Translations under genes and position numbers: made by a program
Shown: piece by piece, positions 33,656-62,974 of the stretch
Numbering within the stretch: the stretch's first letter is position 1
Layout of the letters: each line of letters starts with the position of its first letter
Notes under the pieces: generated by a model
What the model saw: the letters and a program-made list of their open reading frames with translations, nothing else
The model's database searches: none
Told to the model about the DNA's origin: nothing
Assembly (NCBI GenBank): GCA_004296775.1
Contig: RHGE01000023.1
Span: 1-64,000 of the forward strand
Direction: 5' to 3'
DNA from: Marinilabiliaceae bacterium JC017
GTDB taxonomy: Bacteria; Bacteroidota; Bacteroidia; Bacteroidales; Marinilabiliaceae
Length of the DNA: 64,000 bases

Positions 33656-34033
33656 TAAAAAATCACCCGGGAGCTTTAGAAATCGCATTGCATCACCAAA
33701 AAATCATTCAGGAGCATCAGAAAACACTCAAACGCAAAGAAAAAACACTCAAGAGCAACGGAAAATCATTCAAGGGCTCTGGAAAACATCCAAGAACTCC
33801 GAAAAATCATTCAAGCGCAAAGAAAAATCACCCAAGGGCATTGGAAAAACATCCAAGAGCTCCGGAAAACATCCAAGAGCATAAAAAAATCATTCAAGTG
33901 CATTAGGAAAACACTCAAGAGCATCGGAAAATCATCCAAGAGCTCAGGAAATCATCCAAGAGCACCAGAAAACACTCAAGAGCTTCGGAAAACATTCCAG
34001 CGCATCAGAATTCATTCCAGCGCTATAAAAAAG
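33656..34033 (+). repeat. Array A of a 21-nt degenerate repeat
   Basis: About 16 to 17 consecutive units of 19-24 nt with consensus AAAAYCAYYCAAGAGCWYCGG. The core CAAGAGC or a one-base variant recurs in most units. Unit length varies by single bases and is not a multiple of three, so this is not a coding repeat even though an open frame runs through part of it. The same family forms array B at 57059-57408 on the opposite strand; the best 40-nt segments match at 38 positions. Confidence 0.9.
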
Positions 34034-57002: not shown

Positions 57003-57058
57003 GAAGACTCAACAGCAGGCCGTTTCCAATTGATTTGTTGGTTACCTCTATTTTATCA

Positions 57059-57408
57059 GCTCTTGAGTGTTTTCTGATGCTCTTGGATGATTTCCGGAGC
57101 TCTTGAATACTTTTCTGATGTTCTTGGATGATTTCCGGAGCTCTTGAATACTTTTCTGATGCTCTTGGATGATTTTTTGGAGCTCTTGAGGACTTTTCCG
57201 ATGCCCTTGGATGATTTTCGGAGCTCTTGAATACTTTTCTAATGCTCTTGGATGATTTTTTGGAGCTCTTGAATACTTTTTCGATGCTCTTGGATAATTT
57301 CCAGAGCTCTTGAATGATTTTCCGTTGCTCTTGAGTACTTTTTCTTTGCTCTTGAGTGTTTTCTGAAGCTCCCGAGTGTTTTCGGGAGGCTCCTGAGTGG
57401 TGAATTGG
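57059..57408 (-). repeat. Array B of the 21-nt degenerate repeat
   Basis: Seventeen units of 20-21 nt, each starting GCTCTTG or a close variant on the plus strand. In the first two thirds two unit types alternate (ending in ATACTTTTCTGAT and GATGATTTCCGGA), giving a 41-nt higher-order period. The minus strand matches array A at 33656-34033; 57059-57098 is 38 of 40 identical to the reverse complement of 33944-33983. The array fills the gap between two convergent genes and ends at the LuxR-gene stop. Confidence 0.92.
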
Positions 57409-58014
57409 CTACTTGGTCAGTTTATAGTCTTCCGTGTTGATCAGGTTGTTGATAACTGCGTAAATAGTTAGGCCTGAAGCTGATTTTACGCCCAGTTTAT
57501 TGGAAATGTTTTTGCGGTGCGTAATCACAGTGTTGATGGAAATGTTTAATTCATCCGAAATTTCCTTGTTGGCAAAACCTAATGCCACACATCGGAGAAC
57601 ATCTTGTTCCCTGTTGGTTAATGACTGGTTGTTGTTAATAGCTGGTTCCTCTTTTTTGCGTGTGAGAACTGCCATGATTTTTTCGCGCATCGTGCAGCCG
57701 GCGTCGTTAATGTATATCTGACCATCAAATTGCGATAAGACGCATTCGTCAAAGAAAGCATAAACCAGGGCCATCACCGGGATGTTTTTTAACCGGGCGG
57801 TTTGTTTTAGTTTTTCCGCATTGCCACCGGGTAACAAGGCGGGATTCATGATGACAATTTGAGTTTTTTCTTGCTCAACCAAGCACATGAGTTCATTAAA
57901 ATGACAGGCTTCGTGAATAGTGCCGGTAAGTTTCAGGTGCTTGCTGATCATGAATTTTAGCCCGTGTCTGATTAGTTCGGATTGATCGGCGATTAATATT
58001 TTTACAGGCTTCAT
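57409..58014 (-). CDS. LuxR-type response regulator with degenerate receiver
   Basis: The 201-residue protein has an N-terminal receiver-like domain (residues 4-115) and a C-terminal LuxR helix-turn-helix (about 130-195; LTNREQDVLRCVALGFANKEISDELNISINTVITHRKNI). The phosphoacceptor Asp of a true receiver is not present: the equivalent stretch reads IVIMNPALLPGG (about 53-64), and the conserved Lys position is Asn. Phosphorylation control is therefore unlikely. It overlaps the hemerythrin gene by 4 nt and is probably translated with it. Confidence 0.88.
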   Translation of the reverse strand: MKPVKILIADQSELIRHGLKFMISKHLKLTGTIHEACHFNELMCLVEQEKTQIVIMNPALLPGGNAEKLKQTARLKNIPVMALVYAFFDECVLSQFDGQIYINDAGCTMREKIMAVLTRKKEEPAINNNQSLTNREQDVLRCVALGFANKEISDELNISINTVITHRKNISNKLGVKSASGLTIYAVINNLINTEDYKLTK

Positions 58015-58715
58015 AGGCTTTTTCTTTCCTCCAGCTGTTTAATCAATGGTACCAGCACGATGTCTTCGAGTCGGTTGTGGTCGTTAATGTCATATTCAAA
58101 ATCGAACAGTTCTTGCAAGATCATGTTGCGATAGAAATTGTCAGAGGTAGGGGGAAAATGTTTTATCAGCAGGTGCTTAAGATCGGTTAGTTTTTCTTCA
58201 ATGTCGGAGTGGTGTGTTGAAAACTCATCGATGGAATAGCCGGATGTATTTTCGGTATTAGTCAGCAGTGATTGGATATAGGGGAAAACCTGTTGGTCTT
58301 CATATTCCATGTGGGCTTTTACCTCTTCGGCATAAAGCGAGAAAAAGTCGCGTAATAAAACCGAGTGTTTTGATTGGGAGTCTTCAATGAACCGGGTCAG
58401 TAATTTTTGCAGATAAGGAATTTTCTTATTCAGGTAATAGAAGTGGGCATTTGACAAGTATTGGATTAATCCCGGGATCATGTCAGTATTTAAATTGCCT
58501 TCGGGACAATAGGCATGGCTGTTGTACATGTTCAGCAGCATAAGCACCATCTCGATGTTCAGGTTGTGTTCCCGGCAGCACTGGGTAATGGTTTTATCGC
58601 CCATACCAAGGGGTAAACCAATACGGTCCGAAATCAGTAGCAAGCGTTCATTGGTTAGTAAAACATCAGACAGTTTCATTTCTGGTGAGATATGCAATTT
58701 CTCAGAACAACTCAT
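58011..58715 (-). CDS. Hemerythrin-like di-iron protein with ScdA-type N-terminus
   Basis: The 234-residue protein has an N-terminal segment of the ScdA/YtfE type (KLSDVLLTNERLLLISDRIGLPLG) and a four-helix hemerythrin HHE domain with the expected iron ligands spread over AHFYYLNKKI, AHMEYEDQQVFP, STHHSDIEEKL and DINDHNRLEDI. Such proteins bind oxygen or nitric oxide and take part in Fe-S repair or redox sensing. The gene overlaps the LuxR-type regulator by 4 nt, suggesting a sensor/output pair. The start at 58715 removes 12 residues upstream of the family-like region. Confidence 0.88.
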   Translation of the reverse strand: MSCSEKLHISPEMKLSDVLLTNERLLLISDRIGLPLGMGDKTITQCCREHNLNIEMVLMLLNMYNSHAYCPEGNLNTDMIPGLIQYLSNAHFYYLNKKIPYLQKLLTRFIEDSQSKHSVLLRDFFSLYAEEVKAHMEYEDQQVFPYIQSLLTNTENTSGYSIDEFSTHHSDIEEKLTDLKHLLIKHFPPTSDNFYRNMILQELFDFEYDINDHNRLEDIVLVPLIKQLEERKSL

Positions 58716-58892
58716 AGTGTTTCGTTTTTTGTATTTAGACAAAGGTCGCATTTTTCTGTGTTTTTATGGAAGAAAGAAGAGATAGAAAAAGGTTGTTCAG
58801 TTACCGACAAAATGAAAAAAGTGTATAATGGGGAAGAGTGAGTAATATTAACACCTTACGGTTACTGAAACAACCTTTGAATATAATAACAC

Positions 58893-59447
58893 TTAAAAGC
58901 CTGCTATCCCCCATAGGACAGGAATTAAAATGCCGGCTAGTACCAGCCAAACCCCGCGTTTTTTAAAGCCTTTGGGGCCCGGTAGAATGACCATACCGGA
59001 TAATGCCAGGAAAATCAGGATGCCGGCAAAGATGTCAGCCACACCGCGCCAACCGCTAATGCGGCCGTAGTGCATGCGGTTGAGCAATCGGATGATTGGC
59101 TTGGGCTCATACACCTCGGTTTCTACAACGCCGGTTGCCGGCTTGTAATTGCCAATTCCGCCCTTCAGGTAGAGTTTTATTTCCTGTTGGTCCTCAATGG
59201 CCCGGTTTAGTTTAATGCCCGGCATCTTTTGCAGCCAGCGGGCGGTGAGTTGCCGGGATGACAATCCTTTTTCAAACCGCGCTGAGTGTTTCACAGTTTT
59301 ATAAGCCGGGTCTGATTCGCCGCTTTTATGGTTTAATATGATACCGCTTAAGGCGTAGATTACTATCAAGCCAACAGTCAGGTAACCCAGGTCGCGGTGT
59401 AGCGACCTGAGGGGCTTGCGCCATTTAAAGTTCTTCGTCATAATCAA
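58893..59447 (-). CDS. PepSY-associated membrane protein
   Basis: The 184-residue protein has about four hydrophobic segments, with the PepSY-associated pattern LRSLHRDLGYLTVGLIVIYALSGIILNHK at the start and RMHYGRISGWRGVADIFAGILIFLALSGMVILP toward the end (positions about 13-41 and 130-162). Related proteins are heme- or iron-linked ferric reductase-like membrane proteins. The start may be two codons later (59441). It overlaps the lipoprotein gene at 59425-59970 by about 20 nt, so they are coupled. Confidence 0.8.
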   Translation of the reverse strand: MIMTKNFKWRKPLRSLHRDLGYLTVGLIVIYALSGIILNHKSGESDPAYKTVKHSARFEKGLSSRQLTARWLQKMPGIKLNRAIEDQQEIKLYLKGGIGNYKPATGVVETEVYEPKPIIRLLNRMHYGRISGWRGVADIFAGILIFLALSGMVILPGPKGFKKRGVWLVLAGILIPVLWGIAGF

Positions 59448-59970
59448 TTCCTTCCAGAAAATAAACAGAGTAATAGCTTTTATTGTGTTTCTGCATCCAG
59501 CTTTTCATTTTTTCAATGTTTGCCAGTTCGGCCCCACAGGCTTGTTCTTCTTTTTCAAGCGCCACTTTTTCTTTCAGTGCTTTTTGTTCCCATTGGTTGA
59601 TAAATTCTTCTTCCAATCTTTTTTCACGAACAATACCGGTGACAGTAATGGATGAGCCCGATAACTCGCGGTTAAAGCCTTTAATTTTTCCGGCTGCTTC
59701 TACCCGGATACTAACATCACCTGCTTCATCGGATACGATACACCGTTTCCCGGAATGGGAACAAACATGGTTTACCAGGCCTTTAAGTGTTACTTTTTGT
59801 CCAATTAATTGGGCGCCATTGGTCATTACTTCCGACACCTTATAAACCTTTGTTGGTTGATTTTGGGTTGTTTGTGTTTTGCTTTTTGTTTGGTTGCTGT
59901 TGTTTGAACAGCTTGTCGCTAGTACTAAAATTGCGACCATTAATGTTGTTGAAAAAAATAATTTATTCAT
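59425..59970 (-). CDS. Lipoprotein with OB-fold-like domain and Cys/His motif
   Basis: The 181-residue protein has a lipobox (LVLATSC, Cys near residue 21). The middle domain (about 40-115; QLIGQKVTLKGLVNHVCSHSG, then KRCIVSDEAGDVSIRV) reads as an OB-type beta barrel carrying HVCSHSGKRC, a candidate metal or redox site. The C-terminal third is helical and charged. The ATG at 59970 is chosen because 11 extra residues upstream precede a normal signal. It lies 11 nt downstream of the DUF4857 gene stop (59981) and overlaps the PepSY gene. Confidence 0.75.
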   Translation of the reverse strand: MNKLFFSTTLMVAILVLATSCSNNSNQTKSKTQTTQNQPTKVYKVSEVMTNGAQLIGQKVTLKGLVNHVCSHSGKRCIVSDEAGDVSIRVEAAGKIKGFNRELSGSSITVTGIVREKRLEEEFINQWEQKALKEKVALEKEEQACGAELANIEKMKSWMQKHNKSYYSVYFLEGIDYDEEL

Positions 59971-59980
59971 AATAGTGGTA

Positions 59981-61204
59981 TTAATTGTTTTGCTTTTTTT
60001 CACTGTAGATCAATGCCGGGATAAAACCATAAAGGCCTGTCAGTAGGATCCAAATCACAAGGATGATTTTATCTTTTGTTTTTCTTTTAAGACTAATGCC
60101 AAAATAGATTAAAGCCATTATTAAACATGTAAAGAGCGCAGAGAGATGTCCCGGTGTAAAGCGCGGTTTAATAAAATCATCACTCATAGAAGTAAACGAC
60201 AGGGTAAATGGAGTGTATGATAAAATCATTTCGTCTGCTGGCGGAAATGGGCGCTTCATACTTGTTTCACTCTCCACGTCTCTTGTTTTGGTATTAATAG
60301 CAAACAGATGGTTTCCTTGTGCATTAGTTACTTCCACATTCCAGAAGAACATGTTGCCCATAATCATCAAGCGGTCTTTATCGGCATTGAATAATCCTGT
60401 GGGCACTGGTTTTAAGGTATAGTTATCCGTACCAATGGTGTATACTTTGTTGTTGGTATCGATTAAAAAACCATAAAACTCCCGGTTGGGGTATTCAGTG
60501 GTGATAATGATTCTGGGTATTAACCGGGCCGGCAAGTTGGTGTTTCGAATAAAGGGTTTCCCATTGACCATTTTCATGTGGAATACCTTGTTGTTATTGT
60601 CTATGATGAAGTACCCTTCGTCATAGGCTTTTCGGGTGGTTGGCGTACCTGCAATGTGCTTTGCAGGTCCTTGATACCCCTTGGCCTTAAGCGTTTTTGT
60701 AAACAGGTTACTCTTTGAGGTATTAACGGTGTTGGTTTCCGGATCAATAAAAGTGATTACGGAATCCAGTCGAAAGACATCTCCAGGCATGTCCAAATCA
60801 ACACGACCACTCATAGATTCATACAAGGGGAAGAGTTTTATTCCTGGTTTTTTAACATCTGATGGATTGTACCGGAAAAAGAAAGTGTTCTGTTGAATGA
60901 TTTTACCATTTACAGGTGTACCGTTAATCGAATCGGGCATACGACCGTCGGTTAGTAATTGCCGGTAATAAAACATGGGCAGAAGACTGTCGAATTCTGT
61001 TTCAGTATAATGGTGACCGGATTCATCTTTATAGACCAGTGAATCGCCTGTTAGTTCCATGCTGCAGAATTGGTGCAGGATAGAGCTGTAATAGGTAAAA
61101 GGATAATGAACCGATTTTTCGGTCATAAGCCCGTAAAGGGAAGGGATGCCCCAGGAGAGAATCACTGTTGCAACAACTATTATCAGGTAGTTAATCTTTT
61201 TCAT
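59981..61204 (-). CDS. DUF4857 family membrane protein
   Basis: The 407-residue protein has an N-terminal membrane helix (residues 5-25), a large extracytoplasmic beta-rich domain (about 30-345) and two C-terminal helices (about 350-368 and 377-400). This fits DUF4857, a Bacteroidota family that I recall next to ABC transporters. Function is unknown. It follows the ABC permease gene by 205 nt and leads into the OB lipoprotein and PepSY genes. Confidence 0.75.
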   Translation of the reverse strand: MKKINYLIIVVATVILSWGIPSLYGLMTEKSVHYPFTYYSSILHQFCSMELTGDSLVYKDESGHHYTETEFDSLLPMFYYRQLLTDGRMPDSINGTPVNGKIIQQNTFFFRYNPSDVKKPGIKLFPLYESMSGRVDLDMPGDVFRLDSVITFIDPETNTVNTSKSNLFTKTLKAKGYQGPAKHIAGTPTTRKAYDEGYFIIDNNNKVFHMKMVNGKPFIRNTNLPARLIPRIIITTEYPNREFYGFLIDTNNKVYTIGTDNYTLKPVPTGLFNADKDRLMIMGNMFFWNVEVTNAQGNHLFAINTKTRDVESETSMKRPFPPADEMILSYTPFTLSFTSMSDDFIKPRFTPGHLSALFTCLIMALIYFGISLKRKTKDKIILVIWILLTGLYGFIPALIYSEKKQNN

Positions 61205-61409: not shown

Positions 61410-62081
61410 TTAATCTTGTTTGCCCGATTTGAATCGGTTGATGGAATGGAAAATGAAGACGATTGGTAATAAGGTGGCAACGCTGTAAATGGCTAATGTT
61501 GGTTCATAACTACCTGGAGCTGCCGACATGTAGAAAAAGTAGGTAAAGAAAATAGCAATCAGCGTATTGGCTATTCTCATTTTCCAGGATGGCTCCAGGC
61601 ATACCCAGGCTGTGAATCCATAGATGGTTAATCCACCCAAATACCAGGGACATATGGTTATGAATGCCATGGTTACAAATTCAGAGGTAAAAAAGACTGA
61701 AATACCTGTTAATAAAAGGCCGATAAAAAGACTAAACAGACCAATAAGGATGGTAATGCCTGCGCCATTCATGGCGAGTGTAAGTCTTTTTTCTGGTAGC
61801 GGCAGATGAAGATGCAGCTTGAGTCTTTTTTGATAGGTTTCAGGCACGTATTGTGCCAATCCCACCAATAGCCCGGCTATTAATGGAAAGTATTGAACCG
61901 GTTCAAATAAAAAACGGTTCCGATTAATAATGACATCCCAGAGATGTTCTTTTCCTGCGAACCGAAAAGTGCGGCCCAGCTTGATGAATAAATAAGCATG
62001 TAATACAATGCCTGTCAGTAGCAGCGCATAAATTACCCAGCGGGTTTTTAACCATTCTTTATATAGGAGTGCTTTTGTCAT
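61410..62081 (-). CDS. ABC transporter permease
   Basis: The 223-residue protein begins MTKALLYKEWLKTRWVIYALLLTG and has about six hydrophobic segments. It is an ABC-2-type-like permease that partners the ATPase upstream; the start follows that gene's stop by 5 nt. The ATG at 62081 is preferred to 62141, which would overlap the ATPase. Substrate unknown. Confidence 0.8.
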   Translation of the reverse strand: MTKALLYKEWLKTRWVIYALLLTGIVLHAYLFIKLGRTFRFAGKEHLWDVIINRNRFLFEPVQYFPLIAGLLVGLAQYVPETYQKRLKLHLHLPLPEKRLTLAMNGAGITILIGLFSLFIGLLLTGISVFFTSEFVTMAFITICPWYLGGLTIYGFTAWVCLEPSWKMRIANTLIAIFFTYFFYMSAAPGSYEPTLAIYSVATLLPIVFIFHSINRFKSGKQD

Positions 62082-62086
62082 TCTTC

Positions 62087-62974
62087 TTAGTATTTCCCGG
62101 TTAATCCAATGAATGCTTCCTCCAGGGAAAGCGTTTCGCATTTAATCTCTTTGACAGGTATATTGGCAGAAATAAACTCTTTCCTCACCTGGTCTGGTGA
62201 CATGAAACTATAGGTCTCAATCTTGTTTTTGGTTACTTCGGTATTCAGTAAACCAGGTAGATCAAGGTTTTTAATGTCCTTTGTTGTTTCAAACGTAAAC
62301 CGCCTGAAAGAATTCAGAAATGAGTGCGTGGAATCCTGAAGCAGAATTTTGCCATAATCCAGGATGAGGCAATCGTCAATGAGGCGTTCCATATCCTGAA
62401 TAATGTGGGAGGTAACAAATACGGTTTTCTCTTCGGCTTTGGCATATTCTCCCAGGTAATCGACAAACAGGCGGCGGTAACCGGGATCCAGTCCCATAGA
62501 GAAATCATCCAGTATCAGTAAGTCGGGGTCTTGTGCCAGGATCAGGCCCAGCGCCACTTGTGACCGTTGTCCGCACGACATCCTGGAGATTTTTTGCCGG
62601 GGAGCAATGGCTAGTTTTTTCATCAGTTCATAGTACGGCTCTCGTTGCCAGTTAGGAAAGAAGGCGCCGTAGAAACGTTCAATTTGCTCGATGTTCATAA
62701 AGGCATATTGAACATGGCCTTCAATGAGTAGTCCGATGCGTTGTTTGACACCGGGAGAGAGATGACCGGCTTTTTCACCAAACATCAGACATTCGCCCTC
62801 CACGGGTTGCAGATAGCCGTTTAAAAGATTTATGGTGGTTGTTTTACCTGTTCCATTTTTCCCCAGAAGGCCCAGTATTCTTCCTTTGGGAACGGTGAAA
62901 TTCAGATTTTCGTAAATACATCGTTTCCCGTAGTAATGGGTTAATCCATTACACTCTATTACATTTTCTGTCAT
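62087..62974 (-). CDS. ABC transporter ATP-binding protein
   Basis: The 295-residue protein has Walker A GLLGKNGTGKTTTINLLNG (about residues 34-52), a deviating signature MSCGQRSQVALG (Cys in place of the first Gly of LSGGQ), and Walker B LLILDDFSMGLDPG, in which the catalytic Glu is Asp. The H-loop SHIIQD is present. The substitutions could lower ATPase activity but are seen in some exporters. It is the first gene of a group with the permease and DUF4857. Confidence 0.88.
   Translation of the reverse strand: MTENVIECNGLTHYYGKRCIYENLNFTVPKGRILGLLGKNGTGKTTTINLLNGYLQPVEGECLMFGEKAGHLSPGVKQRIGLLIEGHVQYAFMNIEQIERFYGAFFPNWQREPYYELMKKLAIAPRQKISRMSCGQRSQVALGLILAQDPDLLILDDFSMGLDPGYRRLFVDYLGEYAKAEEKTVFVTSHIIQDMERLIDDCLILDYGKILLQDSTHSFLNSFRRFTFETTKDIKNLDLPGLLNTEVTKNKIETYSFMSPDQVRKEFISANIPVKEIKCETLSLEEAFIGLTGKY

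Follow-up and report, generated by a model that had tools for sequence, protein, structure and literature searches.

Throughout the Bacteroidales, a hemerythrin-like protein of RIC descent is paired with a LuxR-type regulator whose receiver domain has kept its fold and lost its phosphorylation site, and the two proteins may together form a metal switch. The window analyzed here, a 64,000-nucleotide stretch of contig RHGE01000023.1 of Marinilabiliaceae bacterium JC017, carries one such pair. Our preferred reading, toward which we lean by a little more than even chances, is that the di-iron protein gates the regulator through contact and without phosphotransfer, mainly as an iron switch that could also be modulated by O2 or NO. 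A wider evolutionary reading appears to us evenly balanced between right and wrong: that a metal switch arose from a phosphorelay across the order, with the RIC-derived protein driving a pseudo-receiver by contact, and that in at least two lineages the receiver was then deleted, leaving one-component hemerythrin-LuxR regulators.

As listed in Table 1, the window pair has the arrangement described for the cdhR operon, a hemerythrin gene followed by a LuxR-type regulator gene on the same strand. The first-pass annotation, made from the nucleotide sequence of the window, had reported a 4-nt overlap of the two genes, and the overlap is indeed there, as an ATGA shared at 58014-58011. An in-frame ATG further upstream, at 58751, would give an alternative hemerythrin of 246 aa. 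The leader of the hemerythrin gene is predicted by RNA folding to form a hairpin with a large inner part, and none of 200 shuffled sequences was equally stable; the hairpin may be the terminator of the PepSY operon, an attenuator or an operator. That its dyad is a repeated element was rejected, because 58780-58892 is single copy in the genome. A sigma-70 scan gave two promoter-like sites, as against 4.7 in shuffled sequences. Separately, intergenic tandem arrays with a 21/41/83-bp unit occupy 57058-57371 and 33698-34017, their units being near reverse complements by eye, as members of a dispersed minisatellite family, and a further array with an 82-bp unit (4.5 copies, 91% matches) occupies 183-552.

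Table 1. Features of the hemerythrin/LuxR locus and of the genes upstream of it (window coordinates).
Feature	Position	Strand	Basis or remark
LuxR/GerE helix-turn-helix	57457..57627	-	PF00196 match; portion retained in receiverless fusions
NarL/FixJ-type (LuxR HTH) regulator gene, pseudo-receiver	57409..58014	-	201 aa; Pfam GerE, AF2
Pseudo-receiver domain, residues 1-121	57652..58014	-	AF2 strands and helices at residues 4-118; catalytic residues lost
Asn57 codon at phospho-Asp position	57844..57846	-	HMMER alignment to VraR
ATGA overlap, 4 nt, of hemerythrin and regulator genes	58011..58014	-	ORF coordinates
Hemerythrin (HHE) gene	58011..58715	-	234 aa from ATG at 58715; RIC/YtfE/ScdA-like, two-domain
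Stretch with six predicted di-iron ligand codons (H91, H135, E139, H169, H213, E217)	58065..58445	-	Alignment with true RICs
Hemerythrin gene leader, predicted hairpin	58716..58892	-	RNA fold z -3.5
PepSY_TM-like protein, co-directional, upstream of pair	58893..59447	-	Pfam PF16357 4.6e-11
Small protein between PepSY and DUF4857 genes	59425..60003	-	No Pfam match
DUF4857 protein	59981..61204	-	Pfam PF16149 8.8e-99
Protein between ABC ATPase and DUF4857 genes	61410..62141	-	No Pfam match at 1e-5
ABC transporter ATPase	62087..62974	-	Pfam ABC_tran 4.4e-20

The regulator is recognized by Pfam through its GerE domain (2.4e-19), and its receiver gives no PF00072 match at an E of 0.001. According to the available text of a 2025 review, some pseudo-receivers fall outside PF00072, though most match it (PMC12632262). 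The AF2 model (mean pLDDT 86) consists of a (beta-alpha)5 domain and an HTH, and its best PDB fold match by Foldseek is VraR (E 1.4e-9), with RcsB, LiaR and NarL also among the best. When aligned to VraR by HMMER, Asn57 of 'IVIMNP' stands opposite the phospho-Asp of 'LILMD', Asp10-Gln11 opposite the DD pair and Val84 opposite the Thr; at the Lys site, where the VraR alignment is gapped, placement by motif gives Asn103-Asp104. A (beta-alpha)5 fold lacking one or more of DD, D, T and K defines a pseudo-receiver (PsR/ALR), and this is the state of the window regulator, from which the canonical NarL/FixJ set of phospho-Asp with DD, T and K is absent. The earlier observations that the receiver active site has no Asp and that the conserved Lys is Asn were thus correct, and the loss goes further, since the second acidic residue and the Thr are also gone; it also recurs order-wide. 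The same genome provides a control: 23 of its 27 GerE matches were read as ORFs over their first 130 residues, and in these the D and K are missing only in the two hemerythrin partners, while six other receiver proteins keep both, five of them with DD and one with ED.

The replacement at the phosphorylation site follows a pattern across the family. The assignment of residue 57 becomes uncertain among the most divergent receivers, and 21 of the 173 paired regulators have no receiver-profile match and were aligned by position before the HTH; with this proviso, the residue is N in 120, D in 15, S in 14, F in 6, E in 5, Q in 4 and another residue in 9 of the 173. Counting the commonest residue of each family instead gives N in 50 of 74, D and S in 9 each and others in 6. 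Both acidic residues are present in only 2 of the 173 partners, a K at the Lys site in 5 and a Thr or Ser at the Thr site in 21. Because D57 together with both acidic residues occurs in none of the 173, phosphotransfer is very unlikely, in line with the first-pass view that a histidine kinase would hardly drive this protein. Among 99 non-degenerate regulators, only one of 121 receiver columns varies less than position 57, which ranks as the eighth least variable of 118 columns in a wider set of 164. This low variability suggests that Asn is favoured rather than drifting, though it is not universal; the previous description of a missing Asp therefore holds for the loss itself and understates a site that favours Asn. 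That the Asp was lost through a mutation or assembly error in a single genome was rejected, as Asn is found in 120 of 173 regulators and in the second pair of the same genome. Judged from these alignments, the regulators have lost their phosphorylation site, and the pseudo-receiver is presumably active without Asp phosphorylation. The 15 regulators with Asp at position 57 count against our preferred explanation.

The partner protein matches Pfam Hemerythrin (1.1e-9), and its relatives of solved structure are ScdA and YtfE. Its match to the RIC family TIGR03652 (1.6e-20, 73.8 bits) lies far under the family cut-off of 204.7, and those to the ScdA and YtfE families are below cut-off as well. The AF2 model (pLDDT 86, pTM 0.85) contains a four-helix bundle, and its best fold matches are YtfE and ScdA at a Foldseek E of 1.5e-3 and a probability of 1.00, none falling below 0.001. 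The ligand positions read HHEHHE, the predicted di-iron ligand set of RIC proteins, and all six are intact in 154 of 172 paired hemerythrins (one of the 173 pairs being too short and left out) and in 34 of 36 fused ones. Most bacterial RICs typically carry an N-terminal DfCCgG motif. At the columns of this motif, Cys occurs in 0 of 172 paired and 0 of 36 fused hemerythrins, in contrast to both Cys in all six true RICs; a CC elsewhere in the N-terminal part is present in 2 of 102 paired proteins, and the window protein has one at residues 46-47, nine positions C-terminal to the motif columns. Separate genes for true RICs above the cut-off exist in 6 of 21 relatives, none of them in the window's own genome, so the paired hemerythrin is not simply the RIC of its host. 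We therefore rejected a plain RIC repair protein on the grounds of the sub-threshold score, the missing motif cysteines and the separate RICs. The protein resembles YtfE/ScdA in its two-domain fold, its six di-iron ligands and its best matches in both fold and sequence, but differs in the absent Cys, the low score and the pairing with a regulator.

Not every paired hemerythrin has kept the metal site. Fifteen pairs in 7 families (L316, L317, L310, L308, L315, L312 and L069-L077) form a ligand-less clade with a recurring N/D-R-D-x-H/N-R pattern (N/D91, R135, D139, R217); nine of its rows come from one genus, and six of those were omitted from the broader quick tree described below. Since these pairs retain the LuxR partner, metal is not required in every pair, which again weighs against the preferred explanation. 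Such pairs look like a pseudo-sensor alongside a pseudo-receiver. Ligands are further lost, by another pattern, in two pairs of family f30, and one more pair is truncated.

The pairing itself is widespread. A hemerythrin match at E <= 0.001 is present in 103 of 149 genomes sampled from the order, and one at E <= 1e-20 in 97 (hand count), the latter figure leading us to reject a recent mobile acquisition. All 114 places at E <= 1.6e-23 were read, yielding 103 pairs, 5 fusions and 6 hemerythrins next to which no LuxR gene was detected, one of these at a contig edge. Over every search, the distinct loci, defined by the last 120-150 residues of the hemerythrin match, amount to 173 pairs, 36 fused proteins and 27 hemerythrins alone, 20 of the latter from outside the order. 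There, only 1 of 21 hemerythrin relatives is paired, and the other 20 have no LuxR neighbour within short flanks. Of the 173 pairs, 169 have an intergenic gap of at most 25 nt and 36 overlap by 4 nt as in the window, although overlaps may be overstated as these counts use mechanical ORF starts. The pair is found on eight named contigs, which belong to Bacteroidota MAGs, for the most part of Bacteroidales. The genome of the window has a second hemerythrin/LuxR pair (C180) in other surroundings, with genes for an Era-like GTPase, an RDD protein and a 1240-aa histidine kinase nearby. By gene neighbourhood, the pairing is conserved across the order. Two loci (L165 and L278) have the reversed order, regulator first and hemerythrin second; another locus (L257) has its second copy cut by the region end, and L025 lies at a contig edge. 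Five hemerythrins (L306, L307, L296, L301 and L281) have no LuxR neighbour though the contig continues, two of them (L306/L307) being followed by a gene for a 926-927 aa protein.

The strongest argument that the separate proteins cooperate comes from natural fusions, which attach the sensor straight to the HTH and in which the receiver appears dispensable as a phosphate switch. Hemerythrin is followed directly by a LuxR HTH in 36 distinct fused proteins, and a receiver match was found in none of them; Pfam returns only Hemerythrin and GerE for one example (L187). Read-through artefacts were rejected as an explanation on account of the same 36 distinct proteins, none with a receiver match. The fusions fall in 5 families, 31 of them in one that is Bacteroidaceae-like by context (f59) and 5 in four others; in f59, hemerythrin is found in 264 of 301 drawn genomes, and many of the listed open frames are near 320 aa. 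Parsimony requires 4 changes of the fused state on a tree built from 74 hemerythrin domains, of which the well supported branches alone force only 1, and a single clade for the 31 fused rows of f59 is rejected (AU p 0.0026). A broader quick tree has 5 fusion changes, at least 3 of them forced by well supported branches. Given the long branches in these trees, at least two fusion origins is the safe reading. Taken together, the fusions strongly suggest that hemerythrin is the input to the regulator, which lends weight to the first-pass proposal of a di-iron protein as the sensor.

The genomic context points to iron at part of the loci. In the window, the pair lies downstream, on the same strand, of genes for an ABC ATPase, an unnamed protein, DUF4857, a small unnamed protein and PepSY_TM; the first of the two unnamed products is probably an ABC membrane subunit. 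By gene types this cluster resembles BT3625-29, for which the accessible text of PMC10434189 gives an increase of 37-65 fold in low iron (BT3625-3629). In 125 pair or fusion regions of >=7 kb, searched with one query protein for each gene type over a mean flank of 8.6 kb in all, 12 have FeoB within 2.7 kb (113 having no close FeoB), 8 have an OprB porin within 2.8 kb, 5 have flavodoxin within 6 kb, 3 have DUF2023 within 1.5 kb and 1 has Prismane beside the pair. The FeoB-adjacent cases represent 7 coded families and three named contigs, and the order hemerythrin-LuxR-OprB-FeoB recurs in five loci (L035, L036, L038, L151 and L291). FeoB gave 58 matches in 60 genomes, 53 of which have one; at about one copy per genome of ~3.5 Mb and 9-13 kb scanned, only ~0.4 FeoB neighbours would be expected in 125 regions, by a rough arithmetic in which the regions are neither random nor independent. 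A neighbourhood shared by all pairs was looked for and none was found, most pairs having no close iron gene. An iron-gene context is thus present, as far as neighbouring genes tell, in part of the loci. At one locus (L170) the pair adjoins flavodoxin and DUF2023 genes. At another (L171:5128-8978) it adjoins flavodoxin and a Prismane/Hcp-type gene, a hint of NO chemistry.

The gene pair has been described before, contrary to the first-pass statement that no example was known. As given in the available text of PMC10434189, the cdhR operon consists of a hemerythrin gene and CdhR, PG1236-PG1237 in P. gingivalis and BT0519-BT0520 in B. thetaiotaomicron, and in P. intermedia the two are fused (PIN17_RS10465). 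The same source reports that low iron raises BT0519-20 by 16-20x and PG1236-37 by about 7x, and places flavodoxin/DUF2023 gene types, BT0516-0517, near BT0519-0520. CdhR has been tied to hmuYR in P. gingivalis (PMC10434189, PMC9666725, PMC8787120, each in its accessible part), and the portion of PMC4082711 at hand describes repression of mfa1 and luxS by CdhR. Our best reading is that the window pair is a CdhR-type pair, as judged from description and synteny. The likeness consists of the same hemerythrin-then-LuxR gene order, the known fused form and the L170 neighbours, which match the BT0516-0520 gene types; the window pair differs in adjoining a PepSY/DUF4857/ABC cluster instead. The prior description of the operon limits the novelty of the pair, and what the present analysis adds is that the receiver is dead throughout the family and was deleted repeatedly. 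In the available portions of the literature, no mention was found of CdhR having a dead receiver or of the fused form having lost it, although the key CdhR papers may contain one. Likewise, 'hemerythrin', 'Bacteroid' and 'CdhR' were not found in the accessible text of the pseudo-receiver review (PMC12632262).

We propose the following mechanism. The sensor would be a cytosolic di-iron protein of RIC descent and the output a LuxR-type regulator, whose receiver, a fold without chemistry, would give the hemerythrin a platform for docking or dimerisation. When the di-iron site is filled, lost or oxidised, in response to iron supply in the first place and perhaps to O2 or NO, the contact would be altered, and the altered contact would change DNA binding by the HTH and so tune genes for iron and heme uptake and for iron sparing. 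In several lineages the hemerythrin would have been joined directly to the HTH with deletion of the receiver, whose job the metalloprotein would take over. Contact between hemerythrin and regulator seems to us highly probable and iron as the main signal fairly probable; the contact, the ligand and the direction of the switch are all what we infer.

The first-pass annotation had left oxygen, nitric oxide and iron as candidates for the signal. The genomic context and the published expression data favour iron, and NO and O2 are also possible. It is accordingly conceivable, though unlikely in our judgment, that the same pair responds to NO or O2 stress, the RIC-like di-iron site reacting with these gases and the iron regulation being a by-product. 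RIC relatives do act in NO and ROS stress according to the available text of PMC9268430, the title of a 2023 paper concerns CdhR in nitric oxide stress, and the L171 pair has the Hcp-type neighbour noted above. Against this, FeoB stands beside 12 of the 125 regions and Prismane beside one (one query protein each), and induction by low iron is strong in two species (PMC10434189, as far as available). That same induction of the operon can also be turned into an argument for a regulator that is constitutively active and controlled by its amount only, with the hemerythrin as a co-transcribed repair or iron-handling protein that makes no direct contact, a reading we regard as decidedly improbable. 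Expression-level control of a constitutively active pseudo-receiver is a model put forward in the accessible part of PMC12632262, and five hemerythrins stand alone. Yet in the fusions, which recur and lack a receiver, the hemerythrin is attached to the HTH itself, and a repair role fits poorly with the absence of the RIC-column Cys in 172 of 172 paired proteins and with true RICs being separate genes in 6 of 21 relatives.

It seems most doubtful that the receiver is still modified, by tyrosine phosphorylation through the Ptk1/Ltp1 axis or by deamidation of Asn57 to Asp, and that the hemerythrin is secondary. Even with an Asp at position 57, the second acidic residue, the Thr and the Lys would still be lacking, and in the fused proteins the whole receiver is missing. 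Moreover, residue 58 is Pro in 106 of 173 partners, and an Asn before Pro is a slow context for deamidation. In its favour, deamidation has been raised for Asn-type receivers (PMC4395418, in its available portion), and tyrosine phosphorylation and dephosphorylation have been reported to bear on CdhR, which in P. gingivalis is stated to be subject to an axis of tyrosine kinase and phosphatase (PMC4082711, PMC9666725 and PMC8787120, in their accessible parts). The latter reports count against gating by the di-iron protein through contact, but direct phosphorylation of CdhR is described as only under investigation in the available text of PMC4082711.

Related hemerythrin-gated outputs are known. 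In animals, FBXL5 uses a hemerythrin domain as the redox or iron input to a fused output. The accessible text of PMC10101095 describes the same role in Bhr-DGC of Vibrio cholerae. Here, by contrast with both, a DNA-binding HTH forms the output, and sensor and regulator are usually separate proteins. On the regulator side, the window protein is of the NarL/FixJ type and has a dedicated, gene-overlapping di-iron partner, whereas RitR of S. pneumoniae is an OmpR/PhoB-type orphan not known to have such a partner. The two are alike in a catalytically void receiver fold with Asn at the phosphorylation site, Asn53 in RitR, and in a link to iron, RitR controlling iron transport; the available portion of PMC4395418, from which this is taken, also gives Asn as 16% of the replacements at this site and reports that substituting Lys10 or Asn53 of RitR was without effect.

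The 2025 review calls the on/off mechanisms of bacterial pseudo-receivers a mystery and, of 20 atypical regulators described, counts only two that are not orphans (PMC12632262, accessible text). A large family in which the regulator has a partner of its own, encoded by an overlapping gene, and in which natural fusions do without the receiver makes the question of how a pseudo-receiver is switched directly testable. The iron response of Bacteroidales, moreover, is called sparsely known in the available text of PMC10434189, in which low-iron induction of the pair spans gut and oral members of the order. If the metal-switch reading is true, the input mechanism would be defined for a whole family of natural bacterial pseudo-receivers, and a large one.
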